The position numbers and the translations under genes were made by a program. From IMG/VR virus record IMGVR_UViG_3300050821_002043, positions 1 through 51,235 of that record: a stretch of 51,235 nucleotides of DNA; one strand, written 5' to 3'. This DNA is from a virus. Below are positions 258-50,936 of this stretch, in pieces (position 1 is the first letter of the stretch; every line of letters starts with the position of its first letter). The notes beneath the pieces were generated by a model. The model saw only the letters and a list, made by a program, of their open reading frames with translations, made no database searches and was not told the DNA's origin.

Positions 258-275
258 GCCTGTCTCCAACGTATG
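258..275 (+). repeat. Junction repeat, L type (short copy)
   Basis: GCCTGTCTCC followed by AACGT and the ATG of the next gene. It lies between the Ala-X gene stop and the lipoprotein start, matching the L-type core seen at other gene ends. Confidence 0.6.
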
Positions 276-440
276 AAAATCACCCTCGCTCTCGTTGAGA
301 TAACAATAATCTGCTTGCTAACGTCCTGCGGTACCGACATCGGCGCACCCGACTACGGGGCAAGAGAGATGCCAAAACAACTTGCCGGTGAGAGTCACGA
401 TCATTATTGGCAGCGGTTAAAAGAGGGGCATTGGTTCTAA
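273..440 (+). CDS. Small predicted lipoprotein (55 aa)
   Basis: ATG at 273, TAA at 438-440. The N-terminus is MKITLALVEITIICLL followed by TSCG, which reads as a signal peptide with a lipobox and Cys near residue 19. The mature part is short, polar and ends with HWF. It would be exported and lipid-anchored. Phage lipoproteins of this size can be superinfection-exclusion proteins, but nothing here proves that role. The start codon is directly preceded by an L-type junction repeat. It is too short for a standard 60-residue cutoff; support comes from the coherent signal sequence. Confidence 0.6.
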   Translation: MKITLALVEITIICLLTSCGTDIGAPDYGAREMPKQLAGESHDHYWQRLKEGHWF

Positions 441-455
441 AACTTTATGAAACGA

Positions 456-505
456 AACACTGAATGCGTGGCTGATTGCTGCGCGAGGAGATTAGAGGCA
501 ACACG
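456..505 (+). repeat. Junction repeat, R type (diverged)
   Basis: AACAC at 456-460, then a spacer and GCGCGAGGAGATTAG followed by CAACACG just before the ATG at 508. It is the same layout as other R copies, with GATTAG in place of GACAGG. A short ORF at 447 reads NTECVADCCARR across it, resembling the NTDDT...HARRQ peptide of other copies. Confidence 0.5.
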
Positions 506-507
506 TT

Positions 508-1059
508 ATGCAGACATTAAGATCAGATTACCTCAAACTTAGACCGATTGTTTTTCCGCCGTTTAACGAGAGACAAATCTATATGCACTCATTCGATGCC
601 TGCGACCCGTTCATGCCACAAGGATTTGAGGATTACATGCCAATCGTGTCCGATTTACTTGATGCGGCAAAAGTGAAAGACCGGCAAGTTCATGTCACGA
701 TTGACGAAAAGATTATTGAATCGGGAATGTCCCAGCGTCGCCCCGGCCCGCATGTTGACGGCTGCTTTACCGGACAGAATTGGGGACATTCAGGCTGGAA
801 TCACTATTGCAACAACATTCCTATTTTGAAGCGTATGGCGATCATTGTTGCCGCGTCAATTCCTGGTTGTCGAGCTTGGCGGGGACAATTTCGAGGCGAC
901 CCGAAAAACGATGGAGATTGCAGTCATTTCGTTCACGGAGAAGGAGAAGTCTTGCCCGCAAACACTGGATACCTTCTCTCTCCTGATTGCATCCACGAAT
1001 CAATGATTTTCAATGAAAAAACAAAAAGACAGTTTCTCCGAATTGCGTTTGCGGCCTAA
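508..1059 (+). CDS. Putative 2-oxoglutarate/Fe(II)-dependent oxygenase-like phage protein
   Basis: 183 residues. The pattern H82-V-D84 within RPGPHVDG, a distal H163 in the DCIHES segment and basic residues at R174/R178 in KRQFLRIAF fit the metal-binding HxD...H and cosubstrate-binding Arg arrangement of the double-stranded beta-helix oxygenases. If so, it would hydroxylate an unknown substrate in the cytoplasm using Fe(II) and 2-oxoglutarate. Alternative: a cupin-like protein of unknown function. The start at 508 follows a diverged R-type repeat. The assignment rests on the motif pattern alone. Confidence 0.5.
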   Translation: MQTLRSDYLKLRPIVFPPFNERQIYMHSFDACDPFMPQGFEDYMPIVSDLLDAAKVKDRQVHVTIDEKIIESGMSQRRPGPHVDGCFTGQNWGHSGWNHYCNNIPILKRMAIIVAASIPGCRAWRGQFRGDPKNDGDCSHFVHGEGEVLPANTGYLLSPDCIHESMIFNEKTKRQFLRIAFAA

Positions 1060-1064
1060 CGCGA

Positions 1065-1122
1065 ACAAGGGAGTGGAATCCTGATATGAAAAGCACGAGT
1101 GGATATACGGAGAAAACAAAAC
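1065..1122 (+). repeat. Junction repeat, L-like unit 1
   Basis: ACAAGGGAGTGGAATCC followed by a short spacer, AAGCACGAG and CGGAGAAAACAAAACC. It aligns along its length with the segment at 2094-2158 (ACAAGGGAGCGGAGTCC ... AAGCACCAACG ... GAGGAAAC). Both occur at gene ends. Confidence 0.55.
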
Positions 1123-1184
1123 CAGTGGCTCTACGACAAGCGCGGCAGAAAAGGGAAAAGGATTTTGGAAAAGAAGGATTTGGA

Positions 1185-1580
1185 ATGAGCAACACGGACG
1201 ACACAGGTGATAATCACGCGCGGAGACAGGCGAACCCAAGGCGCGTGCTTGTATGCGGAGGTCGCGATTTCAACGATTGGGACTGGATGAATGAAACGCT
1301 GACCTTTTACGCTTTTGGCGCTAGCGTGATAATTCACGGCGGAGCAAGGGGAGCTGACAAACTAGCCGGAGATTGGGCTAGAGCATCGGGAACCAGATGC
1401 GAAGTTTTTCCAGCACACTGGCAACTGCACGGAAGGCGAGCAGGGCCGATTCGGAATCAACAGATGATAGACGAGGGCAAGCCCGATCTCGTCATTGCAT
1501 TTCCGGGCGGCAACGGCACAGCAGATATGGTTAAGCGAGCCGTCAAAGCTGGAATCGAATTAGTTCAACCATTCGCATGA
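1185..1580 (+). CDS. SLOG-superfamily (YspA/DUF2493-like) nucleotide-binding protein
   Basis: 131 residues from the ATG at 1185, preceded by an AGAAGGA-type ribosome-binding site; an in-frame ATG at 1086 has a weaker context. Motifs are CGGRDF (24-29), HGGARGAD (51-58), AGPIRNQQM (86-94) and AFPGGNGT (105-112), the Rossmann-like SLOG fold of YspA-type proteins. SLOG domains are proposed sensors of nucleotide-derived ligands in conflict systems; a phage copy could bind or sequester such a ligand (inference). The first 16 residues are encoded by an R-type repeat and nearly match the N-terminus of the unrelated gene at 42964. An L-type repeat follows the stop. Confidence 0.8.
   Translation: MSNTDDTGDNHARRQANPRRVLVCGGRDFNDWDWMNETLTFYAFGASVIIHGGARGADKLAGDWARASGTRCEVFPAHWQLHGRRAGPIRNQQMIDEGKPDLVIAFPGGNGTADMVKRAVKAGIELVQPFA
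1191..1231 (+). repeat. Junction repeat, R type
   Basis: AACACGGACGACACAG, seven variable bases, then TCACGCGCGGAGACAGGC. It is near-identical to 42970-43010 apart from the seven bases in the middle. It encodes the N-terminus of the SLOG protein. Confidence 0.85.
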
Positions 1581-1593
1581 ACCCCAAAGACCA

Positions 1594-1657
1594 GCCCTGT
1601 CCCCAAAGGAAAGTTCAACACTTAAAGGCAACGCCTGAGGAAACAAAGAATTTTATG
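1594..1657 (+). repeat. Junction repeat, L type carrying RBS and start
   Basis: GCCCTGTCCCCAAAG at 1594, CAACGCC near 1629 and TGAGGAAACAAAGAATTTTA before an ATG at 1655. The TGAGGAAACAA...TTATGA block recurs at 2138-2159. The short ORF from this ATG (15 codons) runs into the R copy at 1663-1702, so 1594-1702 is the most complete L-R unit seen. Confidence 0.7.
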
Positions 1658-1662
1658 AATGA

Positions 1663-1702
1663 AACACCACAGCCTGAGAGCGCGAACGAGCGAGGAGATT
1701 AG
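1663..1702 (+). repeat. Junction repeat, R type (diverged)
   Basis: AACACCACAG ... GAGCGCGAACGAGCGAGGAGATTAG, followed by CGACACACAACG and the HAD gene start. It shares the GCGAGGAGATTAG ending with the copy near 480-495. Confidence 0.6.
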
Positions 1703-1717
1703 CGACACACAACGAAT

Positions 1718-2140
1718 ATGAACGAAAGCGGATGGATAGGAGTGGACTTAGATGGAACGTTGGCCAGATATGAAGGTTGGCGCGGCACGGAAATCATTGG
1801 CGAGCCGATTGAACCTATGATCGAAAGAGTTAAGCGATGGCTGGCAGCAGGGAAAGTAGTGAAGATTTTTACGGCTAGGATGCACGGTCACGGCATGCCA
1901 ATTATCGGAGGAGGCGTGGAGGACGTTAAGACGCCCATAGAGCAATGGTGTTTGAAGCACATCGGGCAAGTTCTTGAAATCACCAATGCGAAAGATTTCG
2001 GAATGATCGAACTATGGGACGACAGATGCATTCAAGTAGAAGCAAACACCGGAATCCCGATAGCGTCTTGTCGTGATAGAAAACGAAAGTCTTACAAGGG
2101 AGCGGAGTCCCAGCATGACAAGCACCAACGTTCACACTGA
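1718..2140 (+). CDS. HAD-superfamily phosphatase-like protein
   Basis: 140 residues. VDLDGT at 9-14 supplies the nucleophile Asp10 and acid/base Asp12, FTAR at 51-54 matches motif II, and WDDR at 100-103 fits the metal-binding motif IV, with Lys93 as a motif III candidate. This is the short cap-less HAD layout common in phages; it would hydrolyse a phosphoester in the cytoplasm, substrate unknown. The last ~20 residues (after GIPIAS) are low-complexity, basic and His-rich and are encoded by the L-like repeat at 2094-2158, so the C-terminus appears to have been extended by repeat sequence. The stop TGA is part of the next gene's ribosome-binding block. Confidence 0.75.
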   Translation: MNESGWIGVDLDGTLARYEGWRGTEIIGEPIEPMIERVKRWLAAGKVVKIFTARMHGHGMPIIGGGVEDVKTPIEQWCLKHIGQVLEITNAKDFGMIELWDDRCIQVEANTGIPIASCRDRKRKSYKGAESQHDKHQRSH

Positions 2141-2158
2141 GGAAACAATAAAATTATG
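2094..2158 (+). repeat. Junction repeat, L-like unit 2 carrying RBS and start
   Basis: ACAAGGGAGCGGAGTCC, AAGCACCAACG, then TGAGGAAACAATAAAATT and ATG at 2156. It encodes the HAD protein tail and initiates the next gene. It aligns with 1065-1122 at its left part and with 1636-1657 at its right part. Confidence 0.65.
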
Positions 2159-2368
2159 AGGGATTTGGAACACTCAGAGACGCGGGAGCAGCAAAGCGAG
2201 CGAACAGGCGCATTGCCTTGTCCGTTCTGCGGGATTGTATCAGAAAATACAACTGTAGGCACGATTTATCATCCCAACAACGGCTGTATGCTTGGCGGCA
2301 AAGTGTTTAGCAAGGAGTTTTGGAACAAGCGCGCCGCGCTAGTCTCCTCGCAAACCACGAAGGATTAG
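2156..2368 (+). CDS. Lar-like zinc-ribbon protein (70 aa)
   Basis: CPFC at residues 22-25, Cys44 and a closing FWNKRA (55-60) match the restriction-alleviation Lar-like family, which normally starts near the CPFCG and ends in a WNxR motif. Classical Lar modulates host type I restriction; that role is only inferred here. The ~20 residues before CPFCG are encoded by an R-type repeat and look like a repeat-derived N-terminal extension. The second CxxC of the ribbon is incomplete (one Cys), so metal binding is uncertain. Confidence 0.6.
   Translation: MRDLEHSETREQQSERTGALPCPFCGIVSENTTVGTIYHPNNGCMLGGKVFSKEFWNKRAALVSSQTTKD
2169..2209 (+). repeat. Junction repeat, R type
   Basis: AACACTCAGAGACGCGGG ... 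AAGCGAGCGAACAGGC, located at codons 5-18 of the Lar-like gene. Here it is read in a different frame from the copy in the SLOG gene. Confidence 0.65.
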
Positions 2369-2370
2369 AT

Positions 2371-2805
2371 ATGAATTGGAGTAATAAACACAGCGGCACG
2401 ATGGGGCATCAAGACGCGAGCAGACAGGTCACGCTTTCTGAGCGTAGATCAAAGTTTGTTTACGATGCCGCAAGATTGGCCGCGCAAGCTGCCGGTGCTC
2501 CGATTGTTCCTGTTCCGTGGGATGAGCGCGAAGAGCCGTTCAAGGCGCAATTCCGAGACGTGATTGACAAACAATGCTCCGACAAGCGTTCACGTTCGCC
2601 AGAGGAATTGCATGGCACTTGGATGGAAGCATATCTCACAATGGGTTGGAAATATGGCGAGACTTACAGCCGCGAAAACAAGATTCACCCCGATCTTGTT
2701 CCTTACGATGAACTCGGACAATTAGAGCGCGATAAGGATGCCGTATTCGTTGCCTTGTGCGAGATTGCGCAACAATGGATTTACGATTTGCCTGTCTGCT
2801 CGTAA
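2371..2805 (+). CDS. RyR-domain protein
   Basis: 144 residues from the ATG at 2371; an upstream in-frame start at 2320 lies inside the previous gene. Residues 84-118 carry WMEAY, GWKYG and HPDLVPYDEL, the signature of the RyR domain, a small fold shared with ryanodine receptors and found in prokaryotic proteins linked to nucleotide-ligand conflict systems. Its ligand is unknown. The gene is bracketed by perfect 12-bp inverted repeats: CGAGCAGACAGG near its start (2417-2428) and CCTGTCTGCTCG at its stop (2791-2802), so the C-terminal LPVCS is repeat-encoded. Confidence 0.75.
   Translation: MNWSNKHSGTMGHQDASRQVTLSERRSKFVYDAARLAAQAAGAPIVPVPWDEREEPFKAQFRDVIDKQCSDKRSRSPEELHGTWMEAYLTMGWKYGETYSRENKIHPDLVPYDELGQLERDKDAVFVALCEIAQQWIYDLPVCS
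2387..2428 (+). repeat. Junction repeat, R type
   Basis: AACACAGCGGCACGA ... AAGACGCGAGCAGACAGG in the N-terminal codons of the RyR gene. Its last 12 bases are the exact inverse complement of 2791-2802. Confidence 0.8.
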
Positions 2806-2836
2806 GAAAAACGCCAGCGCATGAACAAGAAAACCA
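2790..2836 (+). repeat. Junction repeat, L type
   Basis: GCCTGTCTGCTCG, the stop codon, AACGCCAGCGC, then ATG and AAGAAAACC. The first 13 bases are identical to 4774-4786. Confidence 0.8.
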
Positions 2837-3105
2837 AAATCAATCCTGTTGGTTCACAGCCGCAGGTTGAAGGAGAAAACCCTTCTGGATTTCGCGGTGA
2901 CAAATTCAAACCAAGTTGGAAAACCCCGTCGCTACCTAGCGAGGACACGGAGGTTTTGGACTGGCTACTTCAACAAAATGGAGGAATTATTTACTGCGGA
3001 AAGTGGGGCTGGAAATGCGAAACACCGGGCGGCTTAAAAGCAACAGGCCGAACAGTCCGCGAAGCAATCGACGCAATGCGTGGCAAGACAAAGGAGAAGG
3101 AATGA
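2821..3105 (+). CDS. Hypothetical protein (94 aa)
   Basis: Not recognised. The N-terminal third is polar and probably disordered. The C-terminal half (VLDWLLQQNGGIIYCGKWGWKC ... TVREAIDAM) is compact with a predicted beta-beta-helix pattern. The start lies inside an L-type junction repeat. The stop overlaps the next ATG as ATGA, so translation is probably coupled. Confidence 0.6.
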   Translation: MNKKTKINPVGSQPQVEGENPSGFRGDKFKPSWKTPSLPSEDTEVLDWLLQQNGGIIYCGKWGWKCETPGGLKATGRTVREAIDAMRGKTKEKE

Positions 3106-3272
3106 GCTTTTGCTGCAAAACTCCCTTCCGAGACTTCGCCAGTGCAAACTTGGCGTGTAACCGGAAATTAAAGAGTAGGCACAAACGCCGGGGGCCAAAG
3201 AAAGAACCAGTATGGTGCTCTATCTGCAATGCTTGGCACAGAAAAAATAAGGAGAACTGGGTAAAATGTTAG
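3102..3272 (+). CDS. Small Cys-containing basic protein (56 aa)
   Basis: Starts at ATG 3102 in an ATGA overlap with the previous stop; a longer frame from 3003 is unlikely because it would overlap the upstream gene extensively. The sequence is basic, with FCCK near the start and a CSICNAWH motif (CxxC plus His) and a terminal Cys, a possible small zinc-binding module. Function unknown. It overlaps the start of the glycosyltransferase gene by seven bases. Confidence 0.55.
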   Translation: MSFCCKTPFRDFASANLACNRKLKSRHKRRGPKKEPVWCSICNAWHRKNKENWVKC

Positions 3273-5068
3273 TCTGCTTCCCTTACAGTCTAGTAGATCA
3301 GGCACTAGCCGCAAAACTAGCCACTTGGATTCGGGAACTAGGCCGGAATGAAGGGCATTCGTGTTTAATAGTCAGGGACGTTAGATGCGATGAGCATCCT
3401 TCGATTGAACAGGATTTAGGATCGGTTTTTGATAAAGTAGAAACGATCAGGTACTCCGAACAAATAGACGGCTGGCCGCAGGGGGCGAACCTAATGTTTC
3501 AGGCCGCTGCTCGTTATATCGAGCACAAATATAGAACCCCGTTCCTATGGCTAGAGGCCGATTGCCTCCCATTGAAATCTGGATGGGTAGCAGAGATTAG
3601 TGCCGAACACAAAAAAGGTGGCAAGCCTTTTACGGGATTCAAAGTACAAGTCCCTAACGTCCCTATCCACATGTCAGGCATCGGCTGTTATCCGTGGGAT
3701 TTATGTAACCATGCGGGGACGATCTACCAGGCAACGGAGATAGCATGGGATGTACACGCCGCCCCCCAGATTGTACCAAGGATGCACCCTACTTCGTTGA
3801 TAGCGCACAGATGGAAATACCCGCCGTTCAAAAACCAAAGCGAAGTGGACAACCTTTTAGGTCAGATCGGGAACGCAGTTATATTCCATTCGGATAAAAG
3901 CGGGACTCTCCTTGATTTCCTTAGGGAGAGGCGGGCACCCCAACAAAACCCCGTACAGGTCAACCTAGAGCGTTCCAGCCCCGTTACAGACATCCTTATA
4001 AAGACGTATTCTAAAGATTTGCCTTGGCTGGCGTGGTGCTTGCGGTCGATAAATAAGTTCACTTCGGGGTTCCGCAAAACGATCATCATATCACCAGACG
4101 ACGATATGGGTTCGACGGATAAAATGGGCTACGATTGGCAGCAAAGATTTGAATACGGGATGGGAAATTCTAACCAAGATTTTTACCTTTCCCAGCAGGT
4201 GTTTAAGATGTATGCCGATACTTTTACAGACGCTAATTTCATACTTCATATCGACTCGGACACGATCTTTACCTGCACAGTAACCCCCGAAACCTATTTT
4301 CGGGACGGTAAGCCAGTAATAATGATGACCCCGATTGATCAAGCTCACCCTGACGAGCAACAAGCGTGGCGTAAGGTGATGAACAAGTTTATGGGTAAAC
4401 CTTCTCAGTTTGAGTTTATGCGAAGATTCCCCTTTGTTTACCCCCGGTGGGCATATGGATCGCTACGGGAGTTCTGCCTGCAACGACATGGGATAACGTT
4501 AGACAAATACATCATGTCCCAACCATACCGGGAGTTCTCGGAGTTTAACTGCATGGGATTTTATCTATGGGAAAATCATCGTGACAAATTTAGCTGGGTT
4601 GATACGTCAAACGTTCCAGAAAAAGACTGGCCTGAGTTAACGGTTGACCAGCGATTCTCTCATAACCCAATTCCGACTGAGGAATGGGATAAGATTTTAG
4701 GTGGTAGCGAAGTAATTGCTGACAGGAATAAAAACCCGTCCACGGGGGATGAAACGCTATCACCTAAAGCTTTGCCTGTCTGCTCGGCACCGCAAGCACC
4801 AACGGTTACGAGGAGAAAACCAAATCGAAAGACTCTGGGGAGTGAGGACAACAAAAGGTCGGAACAGATAAGCCCAAACGGAACTCCTGACCCCTCACTC
4901 CCCAACATCTTTTCTGAAGATCAACTCGCTAAAATCAAAACTACGGAGGATTTGATTATTTTTGGCAAATCCGATGATTTCATAAAACAGCTATCCAAGT
5001 ATTTTACTGATCCTTTATCCAAAGGACGGATTATCAAAAAGCTAAAGAGCTATCCAATAATCAAGTAA
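3266..5068 (+). CDS. Large two-domain glycosyltransferase-like protein with an embedded repeat
   Basis: 600 residues. Two GT-A-like segments are visible: an N-terminal domain with EAD at 97-99 inside FLWLEADC, and a second domain (about 243-480) with IDSD at 329-332 inside ILHIDSDTIF, the metal/nucleotide-sugar binding DxD type. It should transfer sugars from activated donors to an unknown acceptor. Residues ~503-520 (LPVCSAPQAPTVTRRKPN) are encoded by an in-frame L-type junction repeat at 4774-4826, and the linker just after it contains an 11-bp inverted repeat. Residues beyond ~540 form a separate helical tail. It begins a four-gene cluster with overlapping starts and stops. Confidence 0.7.
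   Translation: MLVCFPYSLVDQALAAKLATWIRELGRNEGHSCLIVRDVRCDEHPSIEQDLGSVFDKVETIRYSEQIDGWPQGANLMFQAAARYIEHKYRTPFLWLEADCLPLKSGWVAEISAEHKKGGKPFTGFKVQVPNVPIHMSGIGCYPWDLCNHAGTIYQATEIAWDVHAAPQIVPRMHPTSLIAHRWKYPPFKNQSEVDNLLGQIGNAVIFHSDKSGTLLDFLRERRAPQQNPVQVNLERSSPVTDILIKTYSKDLPWLAWCLRSINKFTSGFRKTIIISPDDDMGSTDKMGYDWQQRFEYGMGNSNQDFYLSQQVFKMYADTFTDANFILHIDSDTIFTCTVTPETYFRDGKPVIMMTPIDQAHPDEQQAWRKVMNKFMGKPSQFEFMRRFPFVYPRWAYGSLREFCLQRHGITLDKYIMSQPYREFSEFNCMGFYLWENHRDKFSWVDTSNVPEKDWPELTVDQRFSHNPIPTEEWDKILGGSEVIADRNKNPSTGDETLSPKALPVCSAPQAPTVTRRKPNRKTLGSEDNKRSEQISPNGTPDPSLPNIFSEDQLAKIKTTEDLIIFGKSDDFIKQLSKYFTDPLSKGRIIKKLKSYPIIK
4774..4826 (+). repeat. Junction repeat, L type, inside a coding region
   Basis: GCCTGTCTGCTCGGCACCGC, AAGCACCAACGGTTACG, AGGAGAAAACCAAAT. 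It is the fullest L consensus in the window, but here sits in frame within the glycosyltransferase ORF rather than at a gene border. Its first 13 bases equal 2790-2802. Confidence 0.85.
4837..4903. repeat. 11-bp inverted repeat in the glycosyltransferase linker
   Basis: GGGGAGTGAGG at 4837-4847 and its exact inverse complement CCTCACTCCCC at 4893-4903, 45 bases apart, immediately after the embedded L repeat. Confidence 0.75.
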
Positions 5069-5757
5069 TGCTACTCTTAGTCCAGACCTACACGGCAGCT
5101 AAGGAAACCTTAATAAGGCATTGGCCGTATTTCCTTAAATCAGGGGCGGATGAAATCTGGATTGTTACAACCACCGATGACAACGATCTATCTTGGTATC
5201 CAAAAGATGTTACCATTGTTAAAATAGGGAACAACTCTTACATCAACGGCGGACATTTACCGCAACGGTTGATCGACACGCTCAAAACAGGGCTAGGTAA
5301 CAAGACTAAATTCCAGCATATTTGTATCTGCGAATACGACACAGTGTTTTTTCATCCGCTCCCGATACAACGAATGGAGCACGCCGTAGCCGGTTACTAC
5401 GCTGGCGGTCAGACCTGGAATAGTAAAGCAAGCGCCTTCTATCATAATCCTTGGGTATTTTTCAGAGAAGCTGCAATCAAGTTTGTAGAAAAAGGACAGG
5501 AAGCTATTAACGAAGGGGTCTGCGGTTACCAAACTAACTCGGCGTTTGCAACTCCTGAAGGAAGCCCGGACGTTTTCGTTGGGTACGCGTGCGAGCACTA
5601 CGACATACCTATTCAGGGAAACGTATGGACGGAATATAGCCGAAACGATCTAAAGGGTAACGGTTACTTGGAAGAAGCGCGACAAGCATACCTAGGGGGA
5701 TACGATGTGATTCATGGTATTAAGACTAAGGAAGAATTAGAGTACATAACCAGATGA
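5068..5757 (+). CDS. Glycosyltransferase-like protein (229 aa)
   Basis: The N-terminus MLLLVQTYTAAKETLIRHWP followed by DEIWIVTT resembles GT-A folds, and CEYDTVFFHPLP (88-99) carries an EYD in place of the DxD. Its TAA/ATG junction with the upstream glycosyltransferase overlaps by one base, so it is co-translated. It probably acts in the same glycan pathway. Acceptor and sugar are unknown. Confidence 0.6.
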   Translation: MLLLVQTYTAAKETLIRHWPYFLKSGADEIWIVTTTDDNDLSWYPKDVTIVKIGNNSYINGGHLPQRLIDTLKTGLGNKTKFQHICICEYDTVFFHPLPIQRMEHAVAGYYAGGQTWNSKASAFYHNPWVFFREAAIKFVEKGQEAINEGVCGYQTNSAFATPEGSPDVFVGYACEHYDIPIQGNVWTEYSRNDLKGNGYLEEARQAYLGGYDVIHGIKTKEELEYITR

Positions 5758-6299
5758 GTAAATGGATTGTGGTTAGCCGATACAGAGAGCCGAACATGGA
5801 GTGGCTTAATCAGCTTGACCGATATTCTTGGAACGTATTCGTAGATGAAAAAGGGGATGATGAATCCCGAAACCATCCTGGTAGAGAAGCTTCAACCTAT
5901 CTCCAGTGGATTGTGGATCGCTACGATAGAATAGCTGGTGAAGAAGTCGTATTCTGCCAAGCCCAGCCGTTCAACCACGACCCCGATTTCCTGTCTCATA
6001 TCCACGATGAAAAGAAAATGTGGTTTGGCGAAATACATAAGTGTGATAAACATGGTTACCCGGCTTGCGATTTTTGCCCGCTCCATTCATGGTCGGATGT
6101 ATTCTGTCTGCCTAAACTGGAAGAGTACTCGTTTGTAGCGGGCGCTCAGTACAGAGTGTTTGACGAACAGATACTAGCCCAATCCCACGACTTTTGGAAA
6201 GCATTGCTATCCTTAACTAAGTTGAGACACAAATACAACATGAGCGCGTATATCCTTGAACGCCTCTGGCCGGTTATACTTGGGATTGAACTTGTATGA
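5754..6299 (+). CDS. DUF3431-like protein (181 aa)
   Basis: The segment HPGREASTYLQWIVDRYD, then VVFCQAQPFNHDPDFLSHI, matches the pattern of DUF3431-type proteins (NxGRE..TYL...YD...FxQgxPFxH), which accompany glycosyltransferases in metagenomic phages and bacteria and are thought to act on glycans. The HKCDKHGYPACDFCPLH insert is Cys/His-rich. ATGA overlap with both neighbours places it in the glycan operon. Confidence 0.55.
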   Translation: MSKWIVVSRYREPNMEWLNQLDRYSWNVFVDEKGDDESRNHPGREASTYLQWIVDRYDRIAGEEVVFCQAQPFNHDPDFLSHIHDEKKMWFGEIHKCDKHGYPACDFCPLHSWSDVFCLPKLEEYSFVAGAQYRVFDEQILAQSHDFWKALLSLTKLRHKYNMSAYILERLWPVILGIELV

Positions 6300-41133: not shown

Positions 41134-41136
41134 ATT

Positions 41137-41292: not shown

Positions 41293-41373
41293 TAATCAAC
41301 CTATTACAAACAATCGTATTTAGACCTAAAGATTTTCCTTGAACGGAATCGGTTTCGCTATAGTCTTACCTAC

Positions 41374-41640: not shown

Positions 41641-41641
41641 C

Positions 41642-43329: not shown

Positions 43330-43330
43330 A

Positions 43331-44100: not shown

Positions 44101-44135
44101 CACCACAAACTAACGCTTTAAGCGAACAGACAGGC
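44097..44135 (+). repeat. Junction repeat, R type
   Basis: ATGACACCACAAACTAACGC, TTTAAGCGAACAGACAGGC. It contains the gene start. Confidence 0.8.
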
Positions 44136-44513: not shown

Positions 44514-44602
44514 ACCTATCTCATCAAGACGAATTTACTTTGATGTCAATGATTCGTGGTCACGAACAAAAGATTCAAATGGACTCAATCAATCATCGTT
44601 CC

Positions 44603-44630
44603 GACATCTGGGTAGTGGGCTACTTTGATT
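44603..44630 (+). repeat. Left target duplication and terminal inverted repeat
   Basis: GACATCTG target copy followed by the 20-bp left inverted repeat of the transposon. Confidence 0.9.
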
Positions 44631-44679
44631 GATTTATGGAAATTATACAGGAGTGCCCGAAAATAGTTGAAGAAAGTTC

Positions 44680-44708
44680 TTGCAATAGCCAAGCAACTTC
44701 GGTATTGT
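44680..44708 (+). promoter_or_regulatory. Candidate promoter inside the transposon
   Basis: TTGCAA (44680-44685), 17-base spacer, TATTGT (44703-44708), six bases before the ATG of the first passenger gene. Reasonable sigma70-like match. Confidence 0.4.
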
Positions 44709-44714
44709 AATCGC

Positions 44715-44981
44715 ATGAACAAAGAAAACCGCGGAAACAAGGTGAGAAATTGGACAGTTAAAATGGGCGATCCTGGCCCGAATCATAACGCTTCTAAGCG
44801 GAAATGTCAGCTTTTCAAAACAGCGAGAGCAAAAATAGGGTGCGCGCACTTCAAGGCTGGCGAAATCGTGGCAGTTGACTGGTGCGCGAGTAATCCAATA
44901 GGCAAAGAGTGGTATACCTGCACGAAGGACGGTAAATCCGCCGTATACCCGGAAGATCACCTGACCAACTTTGTTCTTTGA
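44715..44981 (+). CDS. Transposon passenger protein 1 (88 aa)
   Basis: ATG 44715 chosen over an upstream start at 44667, which would precede the promoter-like -10 box. C-terminal half FKAGEIVAVDWCASNPIGKEWYTCTKDGKSAVYPEDHLT suggests a small SH3-like barrel. Unrecognised. Inside the transposon. Confidence 0.5.
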   Translation: MNKENRGNKVRNWTVKMGDPGPNHNASKRKCQLFKTARAKIGCAHFKAGEIVAVDWCASNPIGKEWYTCTKDGKSAVYPEDHLTNFVL

Positions 44982-44983
44982 GC

Positions 44984-45391
44984 ATGAGCTTTCACTCTGA
45001 GGATATGTCAGACGAATACGGCATCAAAGATCGTGAAATGATGCGACTGGAAAAAAAGGCTTTAGCTGCCTTGCTGGAACACTGGCCCAAGATTCACAAA
45101 GCAATTAGAAGCGACATTCAACTCGCCGAGGCTGCCGAGGATATTGCCGCACTCGCAGAATTGGAACGCATCGCCAGAAGCTTCAAATGCGCTACCTTCG
45201 ATCAAAGCGAAATCACCCCGGAAATACGCGCCAAAATGAACGAGGGAAGGCGAAAAGCCGAGCAAAGCGAGATGAACGTTTACGATGCCTCAAAAGACAG
45301 TGATAAGTGTCCAACGTGCGGGAGTGTTCTCAGTCGTGTTGATTATCACGGCTTCGGCAAACGTTGCACCATTTGCAACACAATATCATGA
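44984..45391 (+). CDS. Transposon passenger protein 2, zinc ribbon (135 aa)
   Basis: ATG 44984 (TTG 44978 is a possible alternative). Helical middle (DIQLAEAAEDIAALAELERIA) and a C-terminal CPTCGSVLSR...KRCTIC ribbon. The zinc ribbon just before a DDE transposase recalls the InsA-type DNA-binding partner of IS1, although the protein is longer. Stop overlaps the transposase ATG as ATGA. Confidence 0.55.
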   Translation: MSFHSEDMSDEYGIKDREMMRLEKKALAALLEHWPKIHKAIRSDIQLAEAAEDIAALAELERIARSFKCATFDQSEITPEIRAKMNEGRRKAEQSEMNVYDASKDSDKCPTCGSVLSRVDYHGFGKRCTICNTIS

Positions 45392-46233
45392 ATCGGCTTA
45401 CCGTAGAACAAAGGACAAGCATCGTTGCGTGTCTCGTGGAGGGCAATTCCCAGCGCGCAACGTGCCGTATGACGGGCCTCGCCAAGAAAACCGTGTCGAG
45501 ACTAGCGGTGGAGCTTGGCGAGGCATGTGAAAGGTTCGCCGACAACATCATGCGCGATCTGCCATGCACGCAGATTCAGTGCGATGAAATTTGGAGCTTC
45601 TGTTACGCCAAGCAAAAGAACGTTCCAAAGCATCTAAAAGGCTCTGGCGCTGGCGACGTTTGGACGTGGGTAGCGATTGACCCCGATACGAAGTTAATAC
45701 CCGCGTGGTATATCGGCGACCGCACAGCGCAGAGCGCCTACCCGTTCATGCGCTCGATTTCCAAGCGGTTGAAGAACCGCGTCAAGTTATCCACAGACGG
45801 GCATCGCGCCTACCTAATCGCGGTCAAGGCGGCATTCCATCTGCAAGAGATCGACTTCGGTATGCTCCGCAAGATTTACGGAGAAAACACGCTGGAGGGC
45901 AAATACAGCCCCGGCGAGTGCATTGGCACAGAGCGCACGATCATTAGCGGACAGATCAGCAAAAGCGAAATCTGCACAAGCCACGCTGAGCGCCAGAATC
46001 TCACGATGCGTATGCAGATGCGGCGTTTTACACGGCTCACAAATGCCTTCTCGAAAAAGATCGAGAATCACCGCCTCGCGTGCGCTTTGCATTTTGTTCA
46101 CTACAACTTTTGCCGAATCCATAGCTCGTTGCGAATAACTCCGGCGATGGCCGCTGGCCTCAGTGACCGCGTTTGGGAGATTTCGGACTTGGTAGAACTT
46201 TTAACCGCCGAGGAGATGGCCCTTGCAGCGTAA
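45388..46233 (+). CDS. IS1-type DDE transposase (281 aa)
   Basis: Start ATG 45388 in ATGA overlap with the upstream gene. N-terminal HTH (SIVACLVEGNSQRATCRMTG, 11-30). Catalytic triad Asp66 (QCDEIWSF), Asp137 (LSTDGHRAY) and Glu201 (SHAERQN) and the closing ACALHFVHYNFCRIHSSLRI segment match the single-ORF IS1-like transposases common in environmental bacteria. Cuts and joins the element ends. Confidence 0.9.
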   Translation: MNRLTVEQRTSIVACLVEGNSQRATCRMTGLAKKTVSRLAVELGEACERFADNIMRDLPCTQIQCDEIWSFCYAKQKNVPKHLKGSGAGDVWTWVAIDPDTKLIPAWYIGDRTAQSAYPFMRSISKRLKNRVKLSTDGHRAYLIAVKAAFHLQEIDFGMLRKIYGENTLEGKYSPGECIGTERTIISGQISKSEICTSHAERQNLTMRMQMRRFTRLTNAFSKKIENHRLACALHFVHYNFCRIHSSLRITPAMAAGLSDRVWEISDLVELLTAEEMALAA

Positions 46234-46543
46234 CCACACCGCCAGTGCCACGGCAATCTGGACATCGCCTGCCCTCGCCATAGCGGCCAAACGGGAGAAG
46301 CCCGTTGCCATCGCAACGCTTGCACGCGCTCCTTTGCGTAATCTTCTCAGCCTTGGCAACGACGCCGTGCGCGATCTGGTTCGCGTCCGGCTTTCGCTTG
46401 CCGCGCTTCTTACCTTTCGGCCAGCCTCCCAGCTTGGCGTTGGCGCGAGCTGCGCGGGTCTTGGCTCTCGATCTGGCCTTGCCACCTTCCGCGCCGATCA
46501 GAGCGCCTACGTTAATTTCGTTTCCACAGTGCGGGCATTTCAT
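46160..46543 (-). CDS. Convergent zinc-ribbon protein inside the transposon (127 aa)
   Basis: N-terminus MKCPHCGNEINVGALIG followed by an Ala/Lys/Arg-rich linker ending in LGGWPKGKKRGKRK resembles small CPHCG...LGG(R/W)P proteins often found with mobile elements. The C-terminal CKRCDGNG and CPDCRGTG pair is a DnaJ-type zinc motif. Overlaps the transposase end by 74 bases on the opposite strand. Function unknown. Confidence 0.55.
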   Translation of the reverse strand: MKCPHCGNEINVGALIGAEGGKARSRAKTRAARANAKLGGWPKGKKRGKRKPDANQIAHGVVAKAEKITQRSACKRCDGNGLLPFGRYGEGRRCPDCRGTGGVVTLQGPSPRRLKVLPSPKSPKRGH

Positions 46544-46584
46544 CCCGCAAACTTAGCAACCTAATCAATGACATGCGCGAACAA

Positions 46585-46612
46585 AATCAAAGTAGCCCAC
46601 TACCGACATCTG
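46585..46612 (+). repeat. Right terminal inverted repeat and target duplication
   Basis: 20-bp right inverted repeat (46585-46604) followed by the second GACATCTG copy (46605-46612). Confidence 0.9.
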
Positions 46613-46870
46613 CTCCAACCGGCACAAAAACGCCGACACCAGCATCCTAGCCAACCCCTCAGCCACTTCTAAGGAGAAGAACAAACAAACGATTCTAGCG
46701 GCCTTACAGCGCGCGGGCGAGGCAACCTGTGAACGATTGGAATCTCTAACCGGCCTCTCGCACCAAGCCTGTTCTCCAAGAATTTCTGAACTCCGAAGAG
46801 ACGGTAAGATTGTTGTCTGCGGACGCGGGGTTACTAAAAGTGGGAAGCAGGCACGTATTTATAAAATTGT

Positions 46871-47035
46871 ATGAATGATAAAACAGAATTGATTAATGAT
46901 CTAATCCGGTCTTGCGACGATTTGATAGAATATTGCTATCACTCCCTTTTCCTAAAGACATCAGACATGGACGCTCTTTCTCGGATTAGAATACGTCTAG
47001 AAGCAGAATTGCAGGAAAATACAAAAACGCCGTGA
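46871..47035 (+). CDS. Small early protein (54 aa)
   Basis: ATGA overlap with the wHTH gene end. Helical (ELINDLIRSCDDLIEYCYHS, DALSRIRIRLEAELQ). Ends KTP, in a segment AAAAACGCCG like that in several junction repeats. Unrecognised. Confidence 0.5.
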   Translation: MNDKTELINDLIRSCDDLIEYCYHSLFLKTSDMDALSRIRIRLEAELQENTKTP

Positions 47036-47056
47036 ATCTGAAAGCGAGATTTCCTC

Positions 47057-47146
47057 ATGCCTCAAAAGATTTCAAATTATAAGGTCAGAAACACGGACTC
47101 CACGGCTGATAGCGACCCGAACAGACAGGCCACCCAACGAACATGA
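47057..47146 (+). CDS. 29-codon ORF across an R repeat
   Basis: MPQKISNYKVRNTDSTADSD and so on; ends in ATGA overlap with the VRR-NUC gene. NTDSTADSDPNRQAT parallels NTDDTGDNHARRQAN in the SLOG gene. It may be a leader peptide coupling translation to the nuclease rather than a protein gene. Confidence 0.35.
   Translation: MPQKISNYKVRNTDSTADSDPNRQATQRT
47090..47130 (+). repeat. Junction repeat, R type
   Basis: AACACGGACTCCACGGCTG, CGACCCGAACAGACAGGC, followed by CCACCCAACGAAC and the VRR-NUC ATG. Confidence 0.8.
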
Positions 47147-47595
47147 AACTAACCTCCACAGTCTTACCGGAATCGTTCCTCCGCTGTCTCGACCCTGTTG
47201 AGCGTAAAAAACTCTCTGGCGGTCAAATTACGTGGCAAGAAGCCCTATCCCAGGGGCAAGTTAAGAACGAGCGCCAGCTACAGAATCAGATTGTTAATCT
47301 ACTCCGATTAAAGGGGATTGAACCTCTCTGGCATCGCACGGATAAGAAAAGCGCGGCAACGATAGGATGGCCGGATATTACGTTCGCTGTTTGTTTAGCT
47401 CCCAATAATGACAAACGCTACATGGTTTACGATTCTGTCCCTTGCGCCTGGGAAGTTAAGTTCGGAAAGGGGTCGCTTTCAATCGCGCAACAGCAAATGC
47501 ACGTCAGACTTTCAACCCCTCCAAACGCATGGCGCATTCGCGTTATCAAATCGGTGGACGAAGCCTTAGAAGAATTAAAGAAACTAGGATTATGA
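47143..47595 (+). CDS. VRR-NUC-type nuclease (150 aa)
   Basis: Glu43 in NERQLQNQIVNLLR, Asp78 in GWPDIT (75-80) and Glu104/Lys106 in WEVK form the PD-(D/E)XK active site; QQQMHVRL follows. VRR-NUC nucleases act on branched or nicked DNA in phage replication or recombination. ATGA overlap at both ends. Confidence 0.8.
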   Translation: MKLTSTVLPESFLRCLDPVERKKLSGGQITWQEALSQGQVKNERQLQNQIVNLLRLKGIEPLWHRTDKKSAATIGWPDITFAVCLAPNNDKRYMVYDSVPCAWEVKFGKGSLSIAQQQMHVRLSTPPNAWRIRVIKSVDEALEELKKLGL

Positions 47596-47792
47596 ATGAC
47601 CTTGCCGCCGAAACCCACGCATTTCATTTCGCCAAAGCTCTCGAAGCTCTCCAAGATATGACCGCGATAGCCTTCGATATGTCCACCCAAGGGACTCAAC
47701 TTTTTAAAGAAGCTCAAGATAGGTTTGAGTTACATAGAAGTAAATGTCAAAAAGAGTTTATGGAACTAAACACCGACGCCACAGGTACTTAA
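47592..47792 (+). CDS. Small early protein (66 aa)
   Basis: Start ATG 47592, an ATGA overlap with the nuclease stop. Helical (AETHAFHFAKALEALQDMTA). The C-terminus ELNTDATGT is encoded by the start of an R-type repeat. Unrecognised. Confidence 0.5.
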   Translation: MNDLAAETHAFHFAKALEALQDMTAIAFDMSTQGTQLFKEAQDRFELHRSKCQKEFMELNTDATGT

Positions 47793-47817
47793 TACACAAC
47801 AAGGACAGGCAACACGC
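47769..47817 (+). repeat. Junction repeat, R type
   Basis: AACACCGACGCCACAGGT, spacer, AAGGACAGGCAACACGC. It spans the end of the 66-aa gene and the gap before the SSB-like gene. Confidence 0.7.
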
Positions 47818-47841
47818 AGTTAAACTAAGAAAGAAAAGACA

Positions 47842-48237
47842 ATGCACATAAACCAACTCAAGGAAAGTAACTACCTCAAAAAAGAAGATTGCGACCCGCC
47901 AATCTTGGTGACGATCAAAGGCGATCTAACCCAGGAAAACGTAGCAATGGAAGGGAAACCCGAAGATTTGAAATGGGCGATTCATTTCAAAGAAGTCGAT
48001 AAACCAATGATCCTAAATTCCACAAACGGCCAACTAATCGCAATGGCTACCGGCAGCGAGAACTCGGAAGATTGGGACGGTAAAGTTATCGTTCTCTACA
48101 ACGATCCGAACGTGAGCTTCCAAGGAAAGTTAGTTGGCGGTATCAGAGTCAGAGCACCAAAGAAAACTAAACAAGGCAATATCTTACCACCGGCACAACA
48201 GACCGAACCTGACGACTCAGACCAATTGCCGTTTTGA
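47842..48237 (+). CDS. SSB-like single-strand-binding phage protein (131 aa)
   Basis: Beta-rich body (PPILVTIKGDL, KWAIHFKEVDKPMILN, GKVIVLYNDPNVSFQGKLVG) and a C-terminal acidic tail DDSDQLPF (124-131) like the protein-docking tip of bacterial SSB. It matches a widespread phage family of unknown-function proteins with this layout. Likely binds DNA or replication partners. Confidence 0.6.
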   Translation: MHINQLKESNYLKKEDCDPPILVTIKGDLTQENVAMEGKPEDLKWAIHFKEVDKPMILNSTNGQLIAMATGSENSEDWDGKVIVLYNDPNVSFQGKLVGGIRVRAPKKTKQGNILPPAQQTEPDDSDQLPF

Positions 48238-48241
48238 TTAT

Positions 48242-48520
48242 ATGAGAACAATCCCCGACGATCCAAGAATCGACAACTACGGACAAGATTCCGGTTATTG
48301 CGGCGAGTGCGGCAATCATCTCGATGAAGGTCGCTGCACCTGTAACCGATGCGACGAATGCGATTACAACTTGGATGAGAACAACGAAGAACCGATGGAG
48401 ATAACCGTTCCTCACCTTCAAACCAAACTGCCTGTTACGTTAAAAGTCTGTGGGATTTGTTTTGAAAAACTGGAGAGCGAGAGAGCTTCATCGAAGCAGG
48501 AGACAGGCAAATCACTATGA
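48242..48520 (+). CDS. Multi-CxxC zinc protein (92 aa)
   Basis: Start ATG 48242, five bases after the previous stop. CGECGNHLDEGRCTCNRCDEC and a distal CGIC suggest two zinc sites. C-terminus KQETGKSL is encoded by an R-type core (48502-48508). Unrecognised; ATGA overlap with the next gene. Confidence 0.55.
   Translation: MRTIPDDPRIDNYGQDSGYCGECGNHLDEGRCTCNRCDECDYNLDENNEEPMEITVPHLQTKLPVTLKVCGICFEKLESERASSKQETGKSL
48498..48508 (+). repeat. Junction repeat, R core, left arm
   Basis: AGGAGACAGGC, the exact inverse complement of 48780-48790. The two arms bracket the 91-aa gene. Confidence 0.8.
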
Positions 48521-48792
48521 ACCTAGAAGAAATAATCTCAGGAGCAGTTAAGAACCAAATTGAGGAAATGGTCGAAAAAATGGTTTATAACAGAAAACAA
48601 TCTTGGGACGAGAAGGATCATCCGACAGGAATTGAGGAAGAAGTTGCTCGGCAGATTACTCTTATTGCCAGAGAGGAAGTTGTTAAACACGAATCATCCA
48701 TTCGCATCGCAGTCAAGGATTCGCTAGCTAATAGCCCAGCGCGATTCAAAATCACTGCGTATTCAGAGATAGAAATTCCGCCTGTCTCCTGA
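48517..48792 (+). CDS. Hypothetical protein enclosed by perfect inverted repeats (91 aa)
   Basis: Helical (EEIISGAVKNQIEEMVEKMV, EVARQITLIAREEVVKHESS) with a beta-type C-terminus (FKITAYSEIEIPPVS). Unrecognised. It lies between AGGAGACAGGC (48498) and GCCTGTCTCCT (48780), the best example of gene bracketing; the final PVS is repeat-encoded. Confidence 0.6.
   Translation: MNLEEIISGAVKNQIEEMVEKMVYNRKQSWDEKDHPTGIEEEVARQITLIAREEVVKHESSIRIAVKDSLANSPARFKITAYSEIEIPPVS
48780..48790 (+). repeat. Junction repeat, L core, right arm
   Basis: GCCTGTCTCCT followed by GACC and the next ATG. Perfect 11-bp inverse of 48498-48508. Confidence 0.8.
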
Positions 48793-48794
48793 CC

Positions 48795-48974
48795 ATGAAA
48801 AACAAGAGTGCTCCCGTTGAGAAAAGAGAAAAAACCTTCCGCGAGGTAGCAGAAATAATGAACTGCTCCCCACGACCGCTACAACAGGATTTGGAGACGG
48901 AGAAAGAGTTTTATGGTTCTCTCAGCGATGCCAAGCGCCGTGAATTTACCGAGCAGACAGGCAACACGCCATGA
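48795..48974 (+). CDS. Small early protein with R-repeat C-terminus (59 aa)
   Basis: ATG 48795 to TGA 48972-48974, ATGA overlap with the next gene. KTFREVAEIMNCSPRPLQQ suggests a helix-turn-helix-like N-terminal half; the C-terminus REFTEQTGNTP is encoded by an R repeat. Unrecognised. Confidence 0.5.
   Translation: MKNKSAPVEKREKTFREVAEIMNCSPRPLQQDLETEKEFYGSLSDAKRREFTEQTGNTP
48925..48970 (+). repeat. Junction repeat, R type
   Basis: GATGCCAAGCGCCGTGAATT, ACCGAGCAGACAGGCAACACG, then CCATG. Ending matches the copies at 2417 (CGAGCAGACAGG) and 47801 (GACAGGCAACACGC). Confidence 0.75.
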
Positions 48975-49093
48975 AAGAATACAAAAAGGGAACATGGAGG
49001 CCTTGCGTGCTTGGTGGTGGAGTTGTCTGGTATAATATTGCCGGATTTGAGCCCGACATGACCTGCAAAAACTGTGGAGACGATCTAGGATGA
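48971..49093 (+). CDS. Small protein with CxxC (40 aa)
   Basis: ATG 48971 and stop 49091-49093, ATGA overlaps on both sides. Has WRPCVLGGG and CKNCGDDLG, a possible minimal zinc site. Unrecognised. Confidence 0.5.
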   Translation: MKEYKKGTWRPCVLGGGVVWYNIAGFEPDMTCKNCGDDLG

Positions 49094-49374
49094 ACTACCG
49101 GCGAAACGAGTTGTACGTAGATAACGAAGTCAGGTTTTATATCACGCTTCGGCGCAAGGAACTTGTTAAAGGTGTTAAAAACCCTGGCGGCATAACCGAG
49201 GACGAAGTTGTAAACGCCGATCTACGTAACCTCTACACCAATGAACACCCCGAATGGGTACTGGCTTGGGATAAACGAGAAAAAGCCCGGCAAAAACACA
49301 AGAAAGATTTGGAGCGAATTGAAAACGAAGCGATAGGACTAGTACCGGAACTAGAAGTGAATCACACAACATGA
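49090..49374 (+). CDS. Hypothetical early protein (94 aa)
   Basis: Charged and helical (NEVRFYITLRRKELVKGVKN, KREKARQKHKKDLERIE). Unrecognised. Coupled to neighbours by ATGA overlaps. Confidence 0.5.
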   Translation: MNYRRNELYVDNEVRFYITLRRKELVKGVKNPGGITEDEVVNADLRNLYTNEHPEWVLAWDKREKARQKHKKDLERIENEAIGLVPELEVNHTT

Positions 49375-49460
49375 ACAGGTTATCTCACAATTTTGCCATC
49401 AAAATCCGAAGATTGCCCGCGAAAAGGGTGGTTAAAATAGTTGTTGACTGTGTTGAATGA
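49371..49460 (+). CDS. Very small basic ORF (29 aa)
   Basis: Starts in ATGA overlap, MNRLSHNFAIKIRRLPAKRV... Too short to be sure of; could be a leader before the replication gene. Confidence 0.3.
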   Translation: MNRLSHNFAIKIRRLPAKRVVKIVVDCVE

Positions 49461-49476
49461 TTAGTCCACGATATCC

Positions 49477-50376
49477 ATGTTAACGATGCACAGGGGGTTT
49501 ACTAAATTGTTCAATACAATCGTCACTAGCACAATTTGGCAGGAGGACGATACGACCAGAATCGTATGGATCACGATGCTCGCTATTGCCGACGCTGACG
49601 GAAAGGTGAGCGCGGCAATACCTGGACTGGCCTCGGTCGCAAACGTAAGCGTTGAAGATTGCGAGAACTCAATAGGGAAACTCAAATCCCCTGATTCTTA
49701 TTCTCGTACCAAAGATTTTGAAGGTCGGAGGATCGAAGAAACGGACGGGGGGTGGAACATTCTCAACTATCTCAAATACCGCCGCATGATGAGCGAGGAG
49801 GAGCGGAGAGAATACAAACGGATTAAGCAAGCCCAATACCGAGCTAGGGAGCGTGGACAATCTGTGGACAAGCGTAGTACTGATGTGGACTCCCGTAGTC
49901 GTAAGTTGAAAAAGTTGACACAGGCAGAAGGAGAAGCAGACACAGAAGCAAAAGAATTACTCGCTAACGCTCGTTTTCAAAAAGCATGGAATGATTGGGA
50001 ACAGCACAGAAAAGAAAAGAAGTCTTCAATTACTCCTACTGCCAGAAAACAACAATTATCCCTTTGCGCCAAAATCGGTGTAGATCGCGCGGTTGCCGCA
50101 ATCGAGTTTTCTACAATGAACGGGTATTCGGGACTTTTTGAACCAAACCAAAAGAAAGGTGTTCGACCAGTTCCTGAATCTCACAAGAAAGTTGACCCCG
50201 CTTCGATTCCGATTCCAGAACGCTTCAAATCTTGGGTTGCTGAAGTTTACCCTGAAAAGCGAGAAGAAGCGATGAAATGGACGACCTGGGCTGACGCTCC
50301 TTCTTGGTTGCGTCGAGAATGGAAAAGTGAGGCAATAGGAACTTTAGCAAATGAAGATTCATCGCCAAGAACATAA
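49477..50376 (+). CDS. Replication-initiation/replisome-organizer-like protein (299 aa)
   Basis: N-terminal ~110 residues follow the phage replication organizer pattern: FNTIVTSTIWQEDDTTRIVW, MLAIADADGKVSAAIPGLA (winged helix), then DGGWNILNYLKYR. A polar linker, then a second helical domain (RFQKAWNDWEQHRKEKKSS ... DRAVAAIEFSTMNGYSGLF). Such proteins bind the phage origin and recruit host helicase. It overlaps the next gene by 26 bases. No polymerase, primase or helicase gene was recognised in the window. Confidence 0.7.
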   Translation: MLTMHRGFTKLFNTIVTSTIWQEDDTTRIVWITMLAIADADGKVSAAIPGLASVANVSVEDCENSIGKLKSPDSYSRTKDFEGRRIEETDGGWNILNYLKYRRMMSEEERREYKRIKQAQYRARERGQSVDKRSTDVDSRSRKLKKLTQAEGEADTEAKELLANARFQKAWNDWEQHRKEKKSSITPTARKQQLSLCAKIGVDRAVAAIEFSTMNGYSGLFEPNQKKGVRPVPESHKKVDPASIPIPERFKSWVAEVYPEKREEAMKWTTWADAPSWLRREWKSEAIGTLANEDSSPRT

Positions 50377-50926
50377 GGCAACGGCTATCGGCGGCATCGT
50401 TACCCGAAGTGCTTTAGAAGCGCGTTGGGCGATATTCTTTACTGGAATTGGTTTGGAATGGAAATACGAACCGACTACTTTTCGGCTACGTAATGGTCAC
50501 AACTACACGCCAGATTTCAAAGTGGAAAACTTGGGATGGATTGAAATTAAACCCACCTTGGGTCACTTGCGAGAATCGGTTAAGAAGATCAAGCAGTTTA
50601 TTTCCGAGCCTTGTTGTACAGATCAGGTTTACGCGATTTGCTCTATGCAGCCAATGTTTCGTTACGGGGAAATTATTCTTTTCACGAAAGGAAAAATCTT
50701 TCTCCCTACCGAGATTCAAATGTGTGCGAAGATTACCAAAGCTGTTGACGAAAACGCAAAGGCGATAAAGCACGAAGCGATTACCTCAGCATTTCACGCT
50801 GCAAATGCCGTCAAATTGGATCACATGATTTCTATTTCCGACCAATTTAGAATGAACCGAGAGGAAATTTTAGCACGCAGGAAACGGCCTGTCCCCAGAG
50901 TGGAAGAAACACCAACGCACGTATGA
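50351..50926 (+). CDS. PD-(D/E)XK endonuclease-like protein (191 aa)
   Basis: RSALEARWA (19-27, Glu23), YTPDF (52-56, Asp55) and WIEIKP (63-68, Glu65/Lys67) form a PD-(D/E)XK nuclease site, of the type used by phage resolvases/exonucleases and VSR-like enzymes. A helical tail follows. The C-terminus RPVPRVEETPTHV is encoded by an L-type junction repeat and resembles the tail of the unrelated 44097 protein (PVPDAQETPTV). Confidence 0.7.
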   Translation: MKIHRQEHKATAIGGIVTRSALEARWAIFFTGIGLEWKYEPTTFRLRNGHNYTPDFKVENLGWIEIKPTLGHLRESVKKIKQFISEPCCTDQVYAICSMQPMFRYGEIILFTKGKIFLPTEIQMCAKITKAVDENAKAIKHEAITSAFHAANAVKLDHMISISDQFRMNREEILARRKRPVPRVEETPTHV

Positions 50927-50936
50927 GAAAACCATG
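50887..50936 (+). repeat. Junction repeat, L type carrying start
   Basis: GCCTGTCCCCAGAGTGGAAG, AAACACCAACGCACG, TATGAGAAAACCATG. It encodes the nuclease tail and initiates the next small gene. Confidence 0.85.

Follow-up and report, generated by a model that had tools for sequence, protein, structure and literature searches.

The window analyzed here, meaning the whole stretch of DNA under study, is a single IMG/VR virus record from an uncultured phage, IMGVR_UViG_3300050821_002043, which is 51,235 bp long and lacks end repeats. Its accessory region (positions 1-5100 and 39300-51235, ~17 kb), as distinct from the remaining 34-kb structural region, carries a dispersed set of short repeats built around a 7-bp core. 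Read on the coding strand, the R copies contain GACAGGC and lie mostly at gene starts, and the L copies contain GCCTGTC and lie mostly at gene ends. This is true of both strands, and the R-gene-L order is repeated on the minus strand (R at 39861-39815, L at 39387-39341). The copies, together with two gene bodies that they enclose, are given below with their profile scores.

258-307, plus strand: L, at the end of the upstream gene and the start of gene 273-440 (39.9 bits; 11.8 bits flank-only when left out)
1185-1231, plus: R, N-terminal codons (MSNTDDT...HARRQA) of a DprA/SLOG-like gene (29.8 bits)
1232-1580, plus: body of the YAcAr/DprA-like gene (PF10686; protein homology from residue 20)
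1595-1648, plus: L, directly after the stop of the DprA-like gene (19.0 bits)
2112-2149, plus: degenerate L, core absent (13.5 bits flank-only)
2163-2209, plus: R with a weak flank, N-terminus of a "PCPFCG" zinc-ribbon-like gene (14.0 bits)
2383-2429, plus: R, N-terminus of the RyR-domain gene (23.8 bits)
2430-2789, plus: body of the RyR-domain gene (homologs align to residues 21-139 only)
2790-2839, plus: L, final residues and stop of the RyR gene (29.4 bits)
4774-4820, plus: L, linker of open reading frame (ORF) 3266-5068 (36.3 bits)
12091-12136, minus: L, low-complexity linker of ORF 11152-12705 (21.8 bits; outside the training set)
39341-39387, minus: L, stop/start junction of minus-strand genes 39366-39638 and 39133-39363 (36.9 bits)
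39815-39861, minus: R, N-terminus of minus-strand gene 39635-39877 (21.6 bits)
40205-40249, plus: L, intergenic, control region (34.1 bits)
42830-42880, plus: degenerate L with a TTGTCTCC core (12.4 bits)
42964-43010, plus: R, near-identical to 1185-1231, before an unrelated gene (35.1 bits)
43586-43632, plus: R, within ORF 43495-44100 (18.9 bits)
43802-43848, plus: R, within ORF 43495-44100, outer end GTTTTCTC (27.6 bits)
43966-44011, plus: L, within ORF 43495-44100 (29.2 bits)
44089-44135, plus: R, N-terminus of gene 44097-44513 (25.2 bits)
44462-44509, plus: L, C-terminal tail of gene 44097-44513 (33.1 bits)
47084-47130, plus: R, before gene 47143-47595 (24.8 bits)
47764-47810, plus: R, between genes 47592-47792 and 47842-48237 (16.2 bits)
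48462-48508, plus: R with a weak flank, overlapping stop/start of 48242-48520 and 48517-48792 (20.2 bits)
48780-48826, plus: L, end of gene 48517-48792 and start of 48795-48974 (36.1 bits)
48916-48962, plus: R with a weak flank, overlapping stop/start of 48795-48974 and 48971-49093 (23.3 bits)
50887-50932, plus: L, C-terminal tail of the endonuclease-like gene 50351-50926 (31.8 bits)
51091-51137, plus: R with an AACAGGC core, end of the record (11.9 bits)

The core occurs 25 times in the window, compared with 4.5 ± 1.9 times in shuffled sequence. The accessory region holds 22 of these occurrences against 1.67 expected, ranking first among all 7-mers for over-representation, and the three in the 34-kb structural region are at chance level. 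At a threshold of ~10 bits, the R model matched 16 sites in the window and the L model 13 (counts that include the training copies, with three of the 16 R-model matches being L copies read in reverse); shuffled 51-kb sequence gave 0.0 and 0.025 matches per window, respectively. Both comparisons bear out the repeat family described in the initial annotation, which was made by inspection of the letters. That annotation had also noticed a single match in the structural region, near 13709. This site does carry the core only, but a full L copy at 12091-12136 had been overlooked.

We generated leave-one-out scores by dropping each of the 11 L and 13 R copies in turn and masking the core. Nine of the 11 L copies were recovered from the other ten, with scores of up to 11.8 bits. 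Judged by its sequence, L is a true family of ~50 bp, with the layout GCCTGTCYCC, ~10 bp, AAACACCAACG, ~8 bp, and GAGAAAAC. Recovery of the R copies was poorer (~5 of 13): the pair with cores at 1225 and 43004 scored strongly (10.6-11.3 bits), three scored weakly, and the rest not at all. Two R subgroups can be distinguished, one with cores at 1225, 43004, 47124, and 47804 and the other with cores at 43842, 39821 (minus strand), and 44129, with the others joined to them by the core. Given this poor recovery, the assignment of R copies outside the subgroups rests mainly on the core. The two families proposed initially have therefore fared unequally, L holding as a whole and R holding within its subgroups.

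R and L have in common a core of 7-10 bp, GSRGACAGGC, in opposite orientations. Beyond the core, their aligned identity was 0.28 versus ~0.22 at other offsets, and common descent of the two outside it is only weakly supported by these alignments. Copies of the same orientation were closer to one another than to opposite copies after reverse complementing (permutation P < 0.0002), and the best match had the same orientation in 21 of the 24 copies, as expected if spread went from R to R and from L to L. The R copy with its core at 43842 has GTTTTCTC as its outer end, which reverse-complements the L tail and lies at the appropriate distance, and this copy matches the L pattern in reverse. A single ~70-bp element with L and R as its halves was considered and dropped, as complete copies were unconvincing.

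The repeats lie close to gene boundaries, with a median distance from the core of 36 bp compared with 90 bp for random positions (P ~ 0.002). The last codons and stop of a gene often fall inside L, and R either makes up a gene's first 13-20 codons or stands 12-16 bp before its ATG, often at ATGA stop-start overlaps. The inverted-core brackets first noticed around the genes at 1185, 2371, 44097, and 48517 do exist. The fifth one proposed, at 51157/1, would exist only on a circular map, and the record has no end repeats. Some copies within ORFs sit in disordered linkers, and the core is translated in different frames (RQA and QTG/ETG; PV, CP, and LS), so its conservation is one of DNA and not of peptide. 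ORF 273-440 is small and has a lipoprotein-like signal (LLTSC); its signal peptide is largely encoded by the L repeat at 258.

For the RyR-domain and DprA-like genes, protein homology reaches its limits at the cores. Phage homologs of the RyR-domain gene (2371-2805) align over residues 21-137 or 21-139, the interval between the R core, which extends to residue 20, and the L core, which starts at residue 140. For the DprA/SLOG-like gene (1185-1580), alignments with most of 40 viral relatives begin near residue 20, as do those with many phage records, some of which start at residues 9-15, and the annotated DprA-like gene of Bordetella phage PHB04 starts ~4 residues before the match. Because homology ends at the R cores, the N-termini that R encodes are additions specific to this phage. 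The R copies at 1185 and 42964 share 41 of the 47 bp that run from the ATG through the final base of the core, and their mismatches fall together in a central 8-bp segment; the surroundings of the two copies are unrelated, as are the genes downstream. The bounds of this identity indicate a discrete start module that was attached, fairly recently, to two unrelated genes.

We tentatively favor the explanation that the repeats are gene-boundary linkers which seed gene-by-gene recombination. Accessory genes would be separated by short dispersed boundary repeats, R on the 5' side and L on the 3' side of each gene body, and these linkers would offer brief stretches of homology for joining or replacing pieces the size of a gene, R pairing with R and L with L, through homologous or annealing recombination of the phage or its host. 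Joints made in or beside reading frames would then become N- or C-terminal protein tails or disordered linkers, in any frame. We infer that recombination between copies made the present arrangement and that the core has been kept because it is the joint. Joints of this kind would be the simplest account of four observations: homology blocks stop at the repeats, sister copies are orientation-specific, the shared module is bounded at the ATG and the core, and the repeats are restricted to the accessory region. Among the three roles suggested in the initial annotation (cassette-like exchange, transcript-processing hairpins, and translation-start modules), cassette-like exchange fits best, on account of the homology limits and the 47-bp module.

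Several results weigh against linkers. R copies outside the subgroups are hardly recognizable without the core, and R and L alternate along the genome with P = 0.08, which makes strict alternation only suggestive. The R and L copies flanking the same gene are no more alike than other pairs (permutation P = 0.18). The placement at gene starts and ends, as first described, holds for most copies but not for those at 4774, 43626, 43842, 43966, and 12136, which lie inside ORFs and away from junctions: 43626, 43842, and 43966 are all in one low-complexity ORF, 4774 is in the linker of a 600-residue protein, and the one at 12136, an L copy, falls within a proline-rich linker of a structural-side protein of 517 residues. 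No recombinase or annealing protein was recognized among the window proteins scanned, and no related phage with genes swapped at the repeats was found in the viral collections searched.

The latter searches covered several collections. Neither megablast of the first 6 kb nor tblastn of two large structural proteins found anything among 50,697 phage records, which indicates that the phage is very divergent. The viral collection contains just one near relative, IMGVR_UViG_3300020579_000037, a contig of 20 kb with 100% identity across the 7.2 kb that were compared; apart from this identical contig, pattern and protein scans together with a profile check identified no other carrier of the repeats among viral contigs. 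The L pattern gave one match, a chance-level result, in 779 genomes from two phyla (a convenience choice). In the pattern scan of genome contigs, the matches listed were dominated by one conserved Burkholderiales sequence and were uninformative on carriers. The repeat is not present in either of two sequences that have one gene in common with the window, L013 and L014. L014, a distant relative of one gene, has its own repeat, a 12-bp tandem array of GTCGCAAGTCNN at 4605-4924, which is unrelated to that of the window. A bacterial repeat in L127 and L024 (Aerophototrophica crusticola), AACACGGACGACACGGACGCCGC...CGGCACACGGACAGGC, matched the R pattern and looks hairpin-forming; it is probably an unrelated host hairpin family.

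The strongest rival, though we consider it unlikely, is a selfish insertion repeat of ~47 bp, comparable to Rickettsia palindromic elements or miniature inverted-repeat transposable elements (MITEs), which would have inserted in both orientations and survived where tolerated, namely at gene ends, in N-terminal tails, and in disordered linkers. Such an element would explain why copies are read in different frames and lie in the tails of proteins and in linkers of low complexity, as well as the sharp edges of the identity between 1185 and 42964, and the R copy ending in the reverse complement of the L tail suggests one family in two orientations. However, the 47-bp module, the only one that could be judged, shows no target-site duplication at its edges, and separate orientation-specific subfamilies are unexpected for insertion in random orientation. 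The core is also far better conserved than the flanks, a comparison that is biased by the core-based search.

Somewhat less probable still is that the repeats are binding sites of a phage or host protein, such as a regulator, antiterminator, or nucleoid or segregation protein, with the core as its recognition sequence. A perfect 7-bp core amid variable flanks is what such sites would look like, as are an orientation that follows gene direction and a confinement to the accessory region. A binding site leaves unexplained the 47-bp modules running from ATG to core, the flank subfamilies, and the copies in coding linkers, and promoter- and terminator-like sites at the repeats were at chance level, not above shuffles. 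It is improbable, in our estimation, that the window holds a gene-cassette system proper, in which dedicated, oriented 5' R and 3' L ends, with the 7-bp core inverted between them, would be recognized by a hypothetical recombinase or annealing protein; single genes would then be inserted or exchanged like integron cassettes, with the distinction that each gene has two different ends.

The other two roles first proposed, in translation starts and in transcript processing, are not supported. Translation-start modules, supplying ribosome-binding sites and start codons in the manner of start-associated sequences (SAS), could be seen in the several R and L copies that end 10-16 bp before an ATG, often at ATGA overlaps, and in the GGAGG within the L copy at 44462. 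Many copies are, however, inside genes or downstream of the start, and the Shine-Dalgarno match is no longer at element-associated starts than elsewhere (3.47 versus 3.35); the repeats are therefore not ribosome-binding modules, L does not generally supply the next ribosome-binding site as had been claimed, and we regard this role as quite improbable. Folding with RNA energies covered two full L-R junctions (z = 1.19 and -0.78) and other element spans (z = -0.41 to 1.60), none of which folded better than shuffles, and Rfam and tRNA searches of the window returned no match. Processing hairpins and cognate pairing of R with L were rejected, since neither the folds nor the permutation test of R-L matching supported them. 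Integron-like cassettes with an attC-type site at each L-R junction are very improbable: the GCCTGTC...GACAGGC ends resemble the attC layout and genes often begin right after GACAGGC and stop just inside GCCTGTC, but the core does not fit the GTTRRRY consensus (RYYYAAC...GTTRRRY), strong self-complementarity is absent from the junctions and spans folded, R and L meeting at one junction match each other no better than others (P = 0.09), many copies are solitary, and no integrase was recognized in the window proteins scanned.

It has long been asked how a phage splices single genes into its genome without breaking the neighbors, and most mosaic boundaries show no recognizable joint sequence (PMC3029335). 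If the repeats are linkers, joints are still visible at both ends of many genes and homology stops there, which would make gene-by-gene exchange directly testable, given a relative or a host. The window also indicates that boundary repeats can turn into protein tails in several reading frames.

Several other features lie in the window. Positions 44611-46605 are an IS1-type insertion sequence with a transposase ORF at 45388-46233 (DDE_Tnp_IS1) that is ~50% identical to rhizobial plasmid copies. It has terminal inverted repeats of ~20-25 bp, and GACATCTG is apparently its target duplication of 8 bp; the element occupies the gap between the L copy at 44462 and the R copy at 47124, and cuts a small ORF. 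A near-consensus sigma-70 promoter (TTGACA, 16-18 bp, TATATT/TATTAT) is found at 41106-41135 between divergent genes, directly after a weak core copy at 41091, and is possibly the main rightward promoter of the accessory region. An intergenic cluster of GTTATACGTT-like repeats at 40136-40176, before the minus-strand gene 39887-40123, may represent operator sites. The very start of the record (2-131) is a degenerate hexamer tandem array, CGCCTN, of ~22 units. Between the accessory and structural regions, a row of ORFs at 3266-6299 shows a weak DUF6492 match and DUF3431, and these genes are possibly glycosyltransferase-type or sugar-related.

Several known systems invite comparison. The PeSL "mobile regulatory cassettes" of T4-type phages, which Arbiol et al. 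are said to have described in 2010, reportedly consist of an early promoter and a stem-loop. Like the window repeats, they are imperfect, are scattered among the genes of a plastic region, and have been proposed to drive modular shuffling; unlike them, they are defined by a promoter and a stem-loop, neither of which is enriched in the window repeats (sites not above shuffles, no stable fold). In the Campylobacter group II phages CP21 and CP220, rearranged modules are separated by degenerate units that share a 13-bp core and occur in both direct and inverted orientation (PMC4546147). Those units form 1-3 kb arrays between 28-55-kb modules, whereas the window has single units around single genes. 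Short boundary sequences acting as recombination sites are a published proposal for mosaicism, although none were found at most boundaries, and the lambdoid boundary (linker) sequences and ~50-bp recombination in Cluster I mycobacteriophages have been discussed in the same context (PMC3029335). Both resemble the window repeats in being short, conserved, located at module boundaries, and proposed as sites of homologous recombination. The lambdoid and Cluster I sequences are common to different phages at one boundary, whereas the window has one family at many boundaries of one genome, in 5' and 3' versions whose cores are inverted.

Cluster K mycobacteriophages carry 11-19 SAS, half of them with 17-bp inverted repeats, near non-structural genes only; the SAS itself is a 13-bp sequence, GGGATAGGAGCCC, that lies 3-7 bp upstream of start codons and includes AGGAG (PMC3203893). 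SAS, together with extended SAS (ESAS), and the window repeats are alike in having many copies per phage, in the non-structural half, at boundaries of unrelated genes, and in being rare outside the phage group. The restriction to the non-structural part is seen in the window as 22 cores in 17 kb versus 3 in 34 kb, with the L copy at 12136 as the exception. The window units differ in being ~47 bp long, in occurring at gene ends too, in running into coding sequence, and in having no consistent Shine-Dalgarno match, and the SAS motif itself gave nine matches in the window at up to three mismatches, compared with 11.3 expected. Microbacterium phages of clusters EC, EF, EG, and EI have 5-12 copies of a motif of unknown function between non-structural genes (PMC7302621), which was reported from short intergenic stretches or from positions before gene starts; unlike in the window, no 3' partner with an inverted core was described. 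The statement that no named element has this layout thus holds for this particular sequence, but comparable phage boundary repeats have been published. We rate the window repeats as the same general kind as these known boundary repeats, with their distinct 5' and 3' versions, inverted cores, and extension into coding sequence being new.

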